This document shows, one piece after another, positions 2,349 to 25,002 of a stretch of 64,000 nt of DNA (position 1 is its first letter; every line of letters begins with the position of its first letter). The position numbers and the translations under genes were made by a program. The notes below the pieces were generated by a model that had not been told where the DNA came from, searched no databases, and saw nothing but the letters and a program-made list of their open reading frames with translations. The stretch comes from Halalkalicoccus subterraneus (GTDB lineage Archaea > Halobacteriota > Halobacteria > Halobacteriales > Halalkalicoccaceae), in contig NZ_RDQG01000024.1 of the NCBI RefSeq assembly GCF_003697815.1, positions 1 through 64,000 on the forward strand, given 5' to 3'.

Positions 2349-3545
2349 TCAGATAAAGTCGGGGTGGTTCTCTATGATCTCTTTGCCGAGCTGGGGATCA
2401 AACGTCGTTTTGTGTTGCTTCACTCGTCCCTCTTGCCCTCGTGATTCAATCCAGGCTTCGAGTAATCCCATCGTTTCGAGATCCGTAACGACGTTTTGAA
2501 TTGCCCGTTTTCCTAGTGGGGCGTCCAGGGCAGTCTCTGTTTCCATCGACTTGCGTATCTGCTCTGTCGTTACTGGTTGGACGATCTCTCCTGTTTGTTT
2601 ATTTGTCCAACTGGTAGCTGCTACTAAGACACCTACATGATTGGCCGGCAGCTGAGCTAGCTTTTCCATAATTGCGTCCTGTTCGGTCGCTTCAAGACTG
2701 TCATTGATGCACTCGATCGTCACGCTCGCTAATTCACGCTGATTTGCTAGTTCTCCCGCATTCCGAAAGAGGGTCAGAGCCTTGCGTGCATCGCCCCAGC
2801 GAGTTGCAGCCTGTAGTATCCCATGCTCTACTGCCTCTGGTACGTAAGATTCCTCGGTAAACGCACGCTCTAGATGTGGAAGGAGGATTTTGGCTAATTC
2901 GTTGGGACCGTATGGCCCGAAAAACACTTCCTCGTTTCCCATCGTACTCTCGACGCGACTATCGAGACGAAGATCCACCTCCACGAGCTGATTGCTGATG
3001 AGCCAGGCTGAAAGAGATATTCCACGCTTGAGCTTCCCTTCGCCACGTAACAATCGGTAGAAGAACTCGTTTGGATCGTAGTTCGTATCGTGCTGGAGCT
3101 GGTCGATCTCATCGAGGATCAGTACCGTATACTCCGGATACCCCTCAAGGGCGACCCAGATTCCCTCGAAGACGCCGTCAAGACCTTCATACGACTTCTT
3201 GCGCTCGCCGATCAGTTCGAGATGGATCTCGTTGGCCGCACTGAAGATCGTTCGACATTCCTTGAGGTTGACGTACTCGACGGCAAGCTCCTCGTGTCGA
3301 GTGGCGAACTCCTCGGCAATCCGTCGGGCAGTGAGGGTTTTTCCTGCTCCCGGTGGCCCGTGAATCGAGACCGTCGGCGGAAGATAGCCTTCGGACACGC
3401 CGTTCAAGATCGTCGCGAGTTCCCGTTCCTGCTCGTCGCGAGCCATGATCTCATCCGGTTCAGCTAATGGATCGAGTGCACCTTTATCCGCAAAGACGCT
3501 GTCATCCGGGGCCGTCTCCTCGAAAAGGTCGTCGTACTTGTTCAT
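2349..3545 (-). CDS. cdc6: Orc1/Cdc6-family replication initiator
   Basis: This 398-residue AAA+ initiator has Walker A GPPGAGKT near residue 65-72, Walker B LILDEID near residue 142-148, a sensor-1 region (SAWLISNQL), and a lid domain with WGDARKALTLFRNAGE. The C-terminal third (about residue 300 onward) is the winged helix that reads origin recognition boxes. Archaeal Orc1/Cdc6 proteins bind origin repeats and load MCM. This divergent, plasmid-type version is intact and of normal length (about 400). Its 5' neighbourhood is short and carries an inverted repeat at 3581-3604 that may be an operator or part of an origin. A relic of a second, different Orc1/Cdc6 sits at 23851-24081. Confidence 0.95.
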   Translation of the reverse strand: MNKYDDLFEETAPDDSVFADKGALDPLAEPDEIMARDEQERELATILNGVSEGYLPPTVSIHGPPGAGKTLTARRIAEEFATRHEELAVEYVNLKECRTIFSAANEIHLELIGERKKSYEGLDGVFEGIWVALEGYPEYTVLILDEIDQLQHDTNYDPNEFFYRLLRGEGKLKRGISLSAWLISNQLVEVDLRLDSRVESTMGNEEVFFGPYGPNELAKILLPHLERAFTEESYVPEAVEHGILQAATRWGDARKALTLFRNAGELANQRELASVTIECINDSLEATEQDAIMEKLAQLPANHVGVLVAATSWTNKQTGEIVQPVTTEQIRKSMETETALDAPLGKRAIQNVVTDLETMGLLEAWIESRGQEGRVKQHKTTFDPQLGKEIIENHPDFI

Positions 3546-10664: not shown

Positions 10665-11674
10665 TGTTCGATCCGTGGGTCGAGAATGGAGTACGTGATG
10701 TCAACGAGGAGATTCACGAGCGTATACAGGACGGCGAACAACAGTACGGTCGCTTGGACGACCGGGTAGTCGCTTCGATTGATCGCATCGACCAACAGCG
10801 TGCCGATACCGTTGATCTCGAAGACGGTCTCGGTGAGGACGGCACCACCCAGCAGCGAGCCGAACTGGATTCCAACGACCGTGATCACGGGAATGAAGGC
10901 GTTTCGTAGGCCGTGTTTCAGGATCGTGATCTTCGCACCTTGTCCCTTCGAGCGGGCAGTTCGCATGTAATCCTGGCGGATGACTTCGAGCATCGACGAG
11001 CGCATCATCCGTGAGATGAGCGCCATCGAGTAGATTCCGAGTACCACGACCGGCAACAGGAGGTGGAGAACCGCTGACTGGAATGCCTCAAGATCTCCTT
11101 CGAGGAGCGTATCCACGAGGATGAACCCCGTGACTGAGTCGATGAAGTGTGCCGATCCAATGCGCCCACTCGTCGGGAGGATCCCGAGAAACTGGGCGAA
11201 CAGGAGGATCAGAAGCGGGCCGCTCCAATAGATCGGGATGCTGATACCGCCGAGTGCACCGACGCGTGTGAGGTGATCGGTGAGTGTATCCTGCTTAACT
11301 GCGCTCAAGATCCCCAGTGGGATACCGAAGGTCAGTCCCGCTATCTGACCGAGAACGGCGAGTTCAATGGTGATCGGAAGGCGATCGGAGAGAATCTGAC
11401 TGACCGGCGTTCCTCGATTCACTTGGTAGGAATTGCCGAAGTCGAACGTCACAACGTCTCCGAGGTAGGTAAGGTACTGCTGCCAGATGGGGTCGTTCAA
11501 GCCCAACTCCGCCCGGACCTGCTCGATGTACGCCTGACTCGCCCGGTCGCCTGCGATCGCGACCGCAGGATCGCCCGGCGAGAGGTGAAGGATAGCGAAG
11601 ACCAGTGTTGCCACACCAAACAAGACTGGGACGAGCAACAGAAGCCGTTTAATTATAAATCGCTTTGATACCAT
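10661..11674 (-). CDS. peptide/oligopeptide ABC transporter permease, DppB/OppB type
   Basis: This 337-residue permease has the classic N-terminus (FIIKRLLLLVPVLFGVATLVF), the OppB segment LSPGDPAVAIAGD, and the EAA loop DYMRTARSKGQGAKITILKHGLRNAFIPV at about residues 225-253. Six TMs are predicted. The C-terminal LLVDITYSILDPRIEQ is typical. It starts 60 bases after the stop of the solute-binding protein gene and overlaps the DppC-type gene by four bases. Together with the fused ATPase at 13468-16203 it makes a complete importer. Confidence 0.95.
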   Translation of the reverse strand: MVSKRFIIKRLLLLVPVLFGVATLVFAILHLSPGDPAVAIAGDRASQAYIEQVRAELGLNDPIWQQYLTYLGDVVTFDFGNSYQVNRGTPVSQILSDRLPITIELAVLGQIAGLTFGIPLGILSAVKQDTLTDHLTRVGALGGISIPIYWSGPLLILLFAQFLGILPTSGRIGSAHFIDSVTGFILVDTLLEGDLEAFQSAVLHLLLPVVVLGIYSMALISRMMRSSMLEVIRQDYMRTARSKGQGAKITILKHGLRNAFIPVITVVGIQFGSLLGGAVLTETVFEINGIGTLLVDAINRSDYPVVQATVLLFAVLYTLVNLLVDITYSILDPRIEQ

Positions 11675-22811: not shown

Positions 22812-23072
22812 CTACTCGGTCCAGAATGCTTCGATCTGTTCGTCGAGACGAGTGAGGACGGCGGCAAGTACGTCCCGCCACTCGTCTGGATAGTTCTCAT
22901 CCTCGCCTGGCGTCGGTGCATCCGGAGGTGGATGGAAGTGCTCGCGGGTGTTGTGATCGTTGAGGTGGCGATCCCAGCGACACTCCCACGAATTTCCCGT
23001 CCGGTATTGCTCGGCGTACTGGACGCTGAAGTCGTCGGTCTCGAACCACCGGATCTGGTCAGAAGCGAATGA
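22812..23072 (-). pseudogene. N-terminally truncated TumE-like toxin
   Basis: The readable part begins near DQIRWFETDDFSVQYAE and contains WDRHLNDHNTREHFHPPPDA, then a helix (DVLAAVLTRLDEQIEAF). It aligns by eye with the toxin at 28891-29340 (FDRHPNTHSPDRHFHSPPDA), but the roughly 60 N-terminal residues of that protein are absent. No ATG or GTG precedes the conserved part. The frame runs into the 3' end of the gene at 23059-23583 instead. It is best read as a toxin gene that lost its 5' end when it was joined to that gene; a fused or coupled product cannot be excluded. Confidence 0.55.
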
Positions 23073-23583
23073 TGTCCGGTTTATCTTGTTTAAAGTTCCC
23101 CGGATAGCCTCCGCCACGTTCACCAAGGAATACGATGGCGTCGAGGTCGCCTCTGGTAAAGCGGGCTTCGTACGACCAGAAGAACCTGTCCTCAATGTCA
23201 TCATCCGACCCGTGGAACTCGAAGGAACCGTGCATATTGTGATCGAGCCAGAACTCATCCGCAACTGTCTGGCCGTCCGGCGTGCCGATTCCGAGTCCCC
23301 GGCTTAGAAGCTCTTTGGGGTCAGCGTCCTCGCGGAACGAGACGTAGTCATCCCACGAGTCGAAGCCATGTTCTTCGGCTTCGGCCTGTTTCTCGTCACC
23401 GGTCTTTTCCCGCATATCTCGTTCCTTTCGAAGGAGCCGTCCCGATCCCGTCAGTTTGTACGTTCGCAGGTAGGGATGTCCGATTTCCTTTGTCTGCCAG
23501 TCGATTTCGGTCGGGTGTCGATCCCGCGGGAATTTCGGCAGTTCAACCTCGTCCTCCACGACCAGCGTATCGTATACCCCCAT
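23059..23583 (-). CDS. uncharacterised haloarchaeal protein
   Basis: This 174-residue protein has a beta-rich beginning (MGVYDTLVVEDEVELPKFP), then IDWQTKEIGHPYLRTYKLTGSGRL and a charged helical middle (KERDMREKTGDEKQAEAEEHG). It has a C-terminal WLDHNMHGSFEFHGSD and FFWSYEARFTRGDLDAIVFL. The protein resembles small haloarchaeal proteins of unknown function near toxin-antitoxin loci. I do not recognise a catalytic motif. It overlaps the truncated toxin on its 3' side. Immediately upstream lie origin-like repeats. Confidence 0.6.
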   Translation of the reverse strand: MGVYDTLVVEDEVELPKFPRDRHPTEIDWQTKEIGHPYLRTYKLTGSGRLLRKERDMREKTGDEKQAEAEEHGFDSWDDYVSFREDADPKELLSRGLGIGTPDGQTVADEFWLDHNMHGSFEFHGSDDDIEDRFFWSYEARFTRGDLDAIVFLGERGGGYPGNFKQDKPDIIRF

Positions 23584-23687
23584 TATGGTCGTTATACCAT
23601 TTCCTTGTACATATACACCAGCCAGCGGTCGCTCAACTTGAAGCAGCTCCGAACGCGCGTTTCAGCTGAATCAGAGCTTTGCCGACC

Positions 23688-23707
23688 CACCCCTCGTACC
23701 GAGTGAG
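23688..23707 (+). repeat. origin-recognition-box-like repeat, copy 1
   Basis: The core ACCCCTCGTACCGAGTGAG, with a C before it, resembles haloarchaeal origin boxes, which pair a CCCC/GGGG end with a CGT-CC-AGTG core. It has an exact reverse complement at 24148-24167 and a near copy at 23747-23766. It brackets the orc1/cdc6 relic. Confidence 0.6.
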
Positions 23708-23746
23708 CGTGACGATTGGAAACCACGATTCAGTGCTACCGGAAGA

Positions 23747-23766
23747 CACCCCTCATACCGAATGAG
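23747..23766 (+). repeat. origin-recognition-box-like repeat, copy 2
   Basis: ACCCCTCATACCGAATGAG differs from copy 1 at two symmetric positions, so the inner palindromic character (CTCAT/ATGAG) is kept. It has the same orientation as copy 1, with the two starting 59 bases apart. Confidence 0.6.
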
Positions 23767-23850
23767 GCGAATCCCACCGATCCGATTCGCGTCGTCTCAT
23801 ATCGGATAGACGAGTGAAACGTTATGGGGAGCGAGGATTGTTACGGATGA

Positions 23851-24081
23851 GCTCGTGGCGTTGTCTCTCCGGATGTCTATGATCTGTATGAGCGGATAAC
23901 TGCAACCGAGCAGATGGAGCCGTTATCGTATGATCGTGTGTCTCGCCTCCTCAAAGAACAGTCGTTTCTCGAGATCACGGAAAGCGAGCACACAGGCGGT
24001 GGCCCAGGCGAGGGGAGCTATCTCGAACACAAACTGATTCGAGATCCGGAGATAGTTCTTGATGCGCTGAACGACGGCTGA
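23851..24081 (+). pseudogene. C-terminal winged-helix fragment of an Orc1/Cdc6
   Basis: This 76-residue open frame has no start and follows directly on a TGA. It reads VYDLYERITATEQMEPLSYDRVSRLLKE... and ends EHKLIRDPEIVLDALNDG. The motif order (Y-x-LYE, PLS-R-VS-LL-E, ITES, G-G-GEGSYLEH, DPEIVLDAL) is that of the origin-binding winged helix at the end of Orc1/Cdc6 proteins. The AAA+ part is gone. It is not a fragment of the intact initiator at 2349-3545, which has a different ending. With the three flanking repeats it marks a dead replication origin. Confidence 0.75.
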
Positions 24082-24147
24082 GGTCTGTCTTGTGTTGGCG
24101 GTACGATTTCTCGTTGTCGTATGAGACGCTCCCCTCAATATCTCTGC

Positions 24148-24167
24148 CTCACTCGGTACGAGGGGTG
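24148..24167 (-). repeat. origin-recognition-box-like repeat, copy 3 (inverted)
   Basis: This is an exact 20-base reverse complement of copy 1, placed on the other side of the orc1/cdc6 relic. Inverted boxes flanking an AT-rich unwinding element next to an initiator gene are the normal layout of archaeal origins. Confidence 0.6.
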
Positions 24168-24242
24168 TGGATGGTGAGTGGACTCTCGAAAGTGACGAAT
24201 ATCCAGACTACCGTGGATGCTACTGGTATACGTGAGAAGAAT

Positions 24243-24461
24243 CTACTTACTCGATTCGAGGAGCCGCTCGGGATCGGCTCCGTGCTCTCGAAGCGCGTCC
24301 AGACAGGATTCGAGGACAGCCATCGAAACCCCATTATCGAAACGAACAGCACTTCGTCGGGGCTCGGGCCACTCACGATGATCGATCTGGACGTACGGGT
24401 GGCCAAAGGGTGGGTGTGAACCCCTCCATCCTGCCCAACCGTGCAGGAACAGCCCCTCCAT
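24243..24461 (-). CDS. possible small protein or gene remnant
   Basis: This 72-residue frame has a convincing haloarchaeal C-terminal half (VQIDHREWPEPRRSAVRFD, then MAVLESCLDALREHGADPERLLESSK), with GC-rich third codon positions in that part. The N-terminal 20 residues look non-coding. It may be the tail of a gene whose front was lost when the neighbouring origin region was rearranged. No family is recognised, and the opposite strand also has an open frame, so this call is weak. Confidence 0.3.
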   Translation of the reverse strand: MEGLFLHGWAGWRGSHPPFGHPYVQIDHREWPEPRRSAVRFDNGVSMAVLESCLDALREHGADPERLLESSK

Positions 24462-24568
24462 ATTGATCGCAGTCGTCGTTCTCATACAGAGAGTACACAC
24501 CTACTACCTACAAAGCGTGGTACCATACAGAGCATACATTTAATTGACAGCGTAGCAAAAGTACGTAT

Positions 24569-24919
24569 ATGTCGATCGATATCGATCAGTTTGACGAACG
24601 CTCTTCGGAGGAGTTAGCGGAGCTCAGCAATCCGGAGCACGCCCTTCGGTTCCTCTATGAGAACCGCGATCGAGCATGGAAGGCAAAGGAGATCGCCCGT
24701 CGGACGCCCGTCCCCGAAAACTCGATCCATCCGGTCCTCTCGCGACTCGAGAAGCAGGAGCTCGTCCGACATAAGGCTCCGTATTGGGCACTTACCACTG
24801 ATCTGGATCGACTTCGCCAGGCCTACGATCACCATCGGGTGACGCGCCTGTTCGATGATTGCTATGGGGACGAGGATCGAGACGAGTGGATCGAGGCGAG
24901 CGAACAGGCTGAGGAATGA
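24569..24919 (+). CDS. MarR-like winged-helix antitoxin/regulator, orphan
   Basis: This 116-residue protein has an acidic leader (MSIDIDQFDERSSEELAEL), then a winged helix over about residues 22-80 (HALRFLYENRDRAWKAKEIARRTPVPENSIHPVLSRLEKQELVRH), and ends in FDDCYGDEDRDEWIEAS. It is the same architecture as the protein at 27195-27515, whose partner is a MazF-like toxin. Here the downstream partner is missing and the AbiE pair follows instead, so it is an orphan antitoxin or a stand-alone repressor. An AT-rich CATTTAAT about 30 bases before the ATG suggests a leaderless promoter. A fragment of a similar gene is found at 5895-5936. Confidence 0.8.
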   Translation: MSIDIDQFDERSSEELAELSNPEHALRFLYENRDRAWKAKEIARRTPVPENSIHPVLSRLEKQELVRHKAPYWALTTDLDRLRQAYDHHRVTRLFDDCYGDEDRDEWIEASEQAEE

Positions 24920-24993
24920 TTTTCCCGTGGAACGATCGTTTACGGGACGGATCCGTTCACCAAACTAGCTCTCAACAAACACCTTTACCACTG

Positions 24994-25002
24994 CTTAATT
25001 TA
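24994..25002 (+). promoter_or_regulatory. TATA box for the abiE operon
   Basis: CTTAATTTA is centred 28 bases before the ATG of the AbiEi-type gene, the spacing expected for a leaderless haloarchaeal transcript. Confidence 0.55.

Follow-up and report, generated by a model that had tools for sequence, protein, structure and literature searches.

A very probable dead orc1/cdc6-adjacent replication origin in Halalkalicoccus subterraneus

What is the segment of about half a kilobase at 23688-24167 of the window (the whole stretch of 64,000 nucleotides analysed here, from contig NZ_RDQG01000024.1 of Halalkalicoccus subterraneus), in which three 20-bp repeats surround a fragment of an initiator gene? 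As discussed below, it is very probably a dead haloarchaeal replication origin of the orc1/cdc6-adjacent type. This reading is carried by the anatomy of the segment, by its homology to an intact origin in a species of the same genus (genome G002; locus L091), and by the lack, in the assembly to which it belongs, of a cognate initiator and of any further good box, all of which is sequence evidence. The segment consists of the following features:

23688..23707, minus strand: box 1, ORB-like, left arm, CTCACTCGGTACGAGGGGTG; its counterpart by order and spacing is L091:10051
23747..23766, minus strand: box 2, ORB-like, left arm, CTCATTCGGTATGAGGGGTG; its counterpart is L091:10108, with the same TATGAG variant
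23767..23869, no strand: junction DNA, 54% GC, standing where an intact origin would have its AT-rich region and inner boxes as well as about 332 codons of orc1
23851..24081, plus strand: orc1/cdc6 relic, a 76-codon open frame (23851-24078) and its stop, identified by Cdc6_C profile match, tblastn and translation
24148..24167, plus strand: box 3, ORB-like, downstream of orc1, CTCACTCGGTACGAGGGGTG; identical to L091:11598

The three origin-box-like repeats are present at the positions given by the initial annotation, and a pattern search reproduced the symmetry that it had described: box 3 repeats all 20 nt of box 1 exactly in inverted orientation, 440 bp away, and box 2 differs from box 1 by two transitions. 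Boxes 2 and 3 form a 23-bp inverted repeat with 91% complementarity, and the orientation of the boxes, two against one, is the inverted arrangement of Orc1-family-specific ORB-like repeats. Chance as the source of the boxes was rejected on the basis of dinucleotide shuffles, which predict 0.01 matches across the entire window when the 19-nt core is allowed at most 3 mismatches, and of uniqueness in the 3.6 Mb assembly, in which the only three copies with at most 2 mismatches are all at 23688-24167. Random recurrence of the box away from initiator genes, which would speak against an origin, was looked for in the same 3.6 Mb and did not occur, and the reversed-pattern control gave 0 matches there. 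One additional box, with 3 mismatches, lies at C20:4769; it was rejected as a second dead origin, since it stands alone and about 0.2 such boxes are expected by chance in 3.6 Mb (our own estimate).

The open frame between the boxes (23851-24078) runs from stop to stop and is free of internal stops. No ATG, GTG or TTG start codon was found near its 5' end, and the first in-frame ATG, at 23914, leaves only 55 aa, which is why the relic is missing from the list of open reading frames of at least 60 aa. Its translation matches Pfam Cdc6_C (PF09079) with an E value of 1.8e-9 over profile positions 31-96 of 96, and the score of 37.9 bits exceeds the curated cut-off of 25.1, in agreement with the proposal that the 76 codons are the origin-binding winged helix of an initiator. 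By tblastn with the full G002 Orc1 as query, the codons from about 23872 correspond to the C-terminal winged helix, residues 333-399. This amounts to 17% of an Orc1 of ~400 aa, and about 83%, the first about 332 codons, is lost; residues 1-332, with the AAA+ ATPase domain and its Walker motifs, gave no match in the window at 23000-25000.

An Orc-like AAA protein of 398 aa is encoded at 2349-3545 of the window, with no ORB-like inverted repeats upstream; a second, shorter relative of it is found on the same 74-kb contig (G000:C24:66037-67186). The relic was considered as a copy of the gene at 2349, and this was rejected both for the missing upstream repeats and because the winged helices differ: the shared match covers only 15 residues (E 0.24), as anticipated by the view that the relic derives from a distinct initiator. 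A conserved stand-alone winged-helix protein was rejected as well, since the N-termini differ among the stumps of other genomes, being either unrelated or broken in different ways.

G002 carries a complete homologous origin at C2:521969-523616, with the following elements (coordinates in L091):

9970, 10051 and 10108, minus strand: left-arm boxes (box search)
10175 and 10269, plus strand: degenerate inner boxes (box search)
within the open frame ending at 11527: the complete orc1 gene, about 400 codons
11548 (minus strand) and 11598 (plus strand): downstream boxes (box search)

The ends of the two orc1 genes align without gaps over 207 bp with 76% identity, and the winged helices are about 80% identical. 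The distance from the stop codon to the downstream box is 66 bp in the window and 70 bp in G002, and the spacing of the left-arm pair is 57 and 59 bp, respectively; the box sequence, the order of the left-arm boxes and the TATGAG variant of the second copy are shared, and the downstream box is identical. The comparison refines the reading of the repeats: copies 1 and 2 belong to the left arm, and copy 3 is the one that follows orc1. Unlike the window, the G002 origin retains its inner boxes and the AT-rich spacers around them (37-38% GC), has three left-arm boxes instead of two and a complete orc1, and its neighbour genes are different, namely two integrases, a CitMHS transporter and AtuA.

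The association between box and gene extends well beyond the genus. Of 14 distinct loci whose winged helix reaches about 55% identity or more, 13 have at least five box matches within 4 mismatches; loci near 45-50% identity are mostly without any box match, and some remoter ones (e.g., L110-L115) carry 2- to 4-mismatch relatives of the box. That the box family tracks orc1 relatedness agrees with the linkage of Orc1 family and ORB sequence published for haloarchaeal orc/cdc6-adjacent origins (Wu et al. 2012, PMC3528665), in which one Orc1 family is tied to one ORB sequence, as here. The same paper describes ORBs that in some cases flank the orc gene on both sides; its survey counted only Orc/Cdc6 proteins of more than 300 aa, and the terms truncated, pseudogene and remnant are absent from its text.

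Relatives of this orc1 that are accompanied by boxes of the family reside on plasmids in Haloterrigena, Haladaptatus, Halomarina, Halostella and Natrinema; others are on Halobellus and Halorubrum contigs. In Haloterrigena turkmenica pHTUR04 (HTUR_RS24735), whose winged helix is 75% identical, the box family occurs on both sides of the gene as in the window, but the gene is complete, there are ten boxes within 4 mismatches, and the origin is plasmid-borne. Thus, the check that the initial annotation had proposed, a search of haloarchaeal plasmids for the box beside an orc1/cdc6 with a matching C-terminus, was positive, and the same arrangement is intact in a congener. The plasmid relatives and the G002 homologue together confirm the box-orc1 association, and the central claim of a dead origin whose initiator was almost deleted is supported. 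A viral source of the scrap was rejected after searches of IMG/VR, where no full-length relative exceeded 33% identity and the exact box was absent.

An origin of this kind, when intact, would be bound by its Orc1 at inverted 20-bp ORBs flanking AT-rich DNA upstream of the orc1 gene itself; Orc1 would open this DNA and then recruit the replicative helicase, with additional boxes located downstream of the gene. In the window, a deletion or rearrangement has very probably removed this AT-rich DNA together with the inner boxes and some 332 codons from the start of orc1, leaving two left-arm boxes, the C-terminal winged helix and the downstream box. In line with this, an AT-rich unwinding region between the inverted boxes was not found, the junction having 54% GC compared with the 37-38% of the G002 spacers, and compared with G002 about 83% of orc1 is gone, as are the inner boxes and the region where unwinding presumably began. 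Alignment of the junction DNA with four intact origins gave nothing clearly better than shuffled sequence. The left breakpoint can be narrowed only to the interval from 23767 to about 23870, which makes a simple single deletion a possible rather than a proven cause.

The missing part could instead have been dropped, or mis-joined at the inverted boxes, during assembly, for which the draft state of the genome (101 contigs) and the inverted repeats of 20-23 bp at the site might be adduced. Such an artefact is extremely unlikely, as the break is located ~100 bp from the nearest box, within DNA that has no relation to the origin, a result that collapsed boxes would not produce, and the assembly has no other Cdc6_C match of the relic's family.

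The dead origin also appears to be without a partner. In Haloarcula hispanica, ori regions lacking their cdc6 do not replicate unless the cognate Cdc6 is given in trans (PMC3936714). Neither a complete adjacent orc1/cdc6 nor a cognate initiator in trans was found in the H. subterraneus assembly, which is about 95% complete in its 101 contigs, so that a plasmid with the cognate Orc1 could be missing from it. The next most similar winged helix of the genome, on C46, is 49% identical, and this Orc1 has counterparts of similar identity in well-sequenced congeners, and for these reasons it is not regarded as the cognate one. The origin at 23688-24167 would then be unable to fire.

The differences between the relic and the end of the G002 orc1 are mostly synonymous (dN 0.094, dS saturated), so that selection on the gene probably persisted until recently. 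Roughly 10 nonsynonymous changes fall on the relic branch against 4 on the G002 branch (derived from counts, with synonymous sites saturated), which is suggestive only of relaxed selection on the relic. The loss of the origin was probably recent, and the scrap most likely has no present-day function.

The well-kept boxes and the open frame could also reflect some constraint, which would count against death. The scrap might be retained as a titration or incompatibility element, whose near-perfect boxes, perhaps together with a winged-helix peptide from the frame without internal stops, interfere with the replication of plasmids of this family by binding their Orc1. There is a precedent in H. 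hispanica: oriC2 is repressed there, probably through titration of Cdc6E, by a region that is rich in ORBs but has no origin activity, and plasmids with oriC2 show incompatibility with the wild type (PMC3936714). This region, oriC2D, located downstream of cdc6E, resembles the window in that its ORBs do not act alone as an origin; unlike the window, it is a regulator that adjoins a live origin, with the initiator present. The titration role is very unlikely, given that there are three boxes only, that the full winged-helix domain is without a start codon, that the scrap is not conserved at the same place in congeners, that the assembly contains no cognate initiator, and that recent death accounts for the good preservation equally well. 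It is just as improbable that the dead origin has been kept as a plasmid-exclusion site, titrating or blocking the Orc1 of incoming plasmids of the same family.

If 23688-24167 is a dead origin, how did it arrive? The claimed integration or fusion of a second replicon at this place was not demonstrated: the piece of origin measures ~0.5 kb, the neighbours of the G002 origin are absent, and the flanks are fragmentary. On one side, segment 22812-23055 is the C-terminal part of a conserved hypothetical gene, cut at about 23055, that encodes 145 aa when intact (on a Haloarcula plasmid) and has homologues widespread on haloarchaeal plasmids and chromosomes. On the other side lie 24252-24394 and 24446-24959, two pieces whose close relatives in G002, G004 and G005 are not accompanied by the origin. 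Remoter genes of the window have their counterparts on a 2.8-Mb contig of G005, on G004:C11 and on G002:C6, but in scrambled order, which suggests that the region is a rearrangement hot spot. Across window positions 1-64000, gene relatives in L100, L101 and L102 are close and their order is strongly scrambled.

An integrated or fused second replicon that afterwards had its origin inactivated, for instance to prevent the origins from conflicting, would be compatible with a dead origin and would add a history to it. Many intact relatives are plasmid-borne, and the region is rich in mobile or accessory genes and is scrambled with respect to congeners, both of which would fit this history; on the other hand, no further replicon or plasmid-backbone gene was recognised alongside the scrap, the neighbours of the G002 origin were not found anywhere in the assembly, the origin piece is short, and the flanking segments match origin-free loci of congeners and are themselves fragments. 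Because the flanks are a patchwork and the G002 neighbours are absent, integration or fusion of a replicon is possible but considered rather unlikely; a smaller rearrangement accounts for the facts as well. A small rearrangement, transposition and the decay of an integrated replicon are all possible routes of arrival for the dead origin.

A helix-turn-helix gene lies at 24569-24919; its relative on a Natrononativus plasmid directly precedes a PemK/MazF-type toxin gene, and no such toxin gene was recognised after it in the window, so it may be an orphan antitoxin-like gene.

Among 243 genomes of the order, at least five more C-terminal orc1 stumps lack the rest of the gene (L209, L211, L213, L214 and L215), as found with the orc1 C-terminus as the query, a search that N-terminal stumps would escape. 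On plasmid unnamed2 of Natronococcus sp. CG52 (L023, 3860-4207), an orc1 of this family is cut to residues 286-399 and joined to decayed transposase-like DNA, with no recognisable box. At all six loci the end of orc1 alone survives; 4-mismatch boxes lie near several of them, and none has near-perfect boxes on both sides, unlike the window, whose copy is unusual mainly in this respect. The stumps in other genomes look like independent losses, and their repeated occurrence indicates that loss of orc1 origins of this type is recurrent in haloarchaea. Another orc1 of the same family (L210, G090:C1:1576500-1582500) is apparently split by a frame change near residue 227, which is either a sequencing error or a fresh pseudogene.

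The scrap is the well-preserved fossil of an origin type already known rather than a new system. With the origin intact in G002 and dead in the window, the two form a clean pair for studying how haloarchaeal genomes lose origins, and the signature of boxes plus stump could serve to count dead origins across genomes. Provided that initiators still bind to the boxes, a host's dead origins could influence which plasmids it is able to keep.
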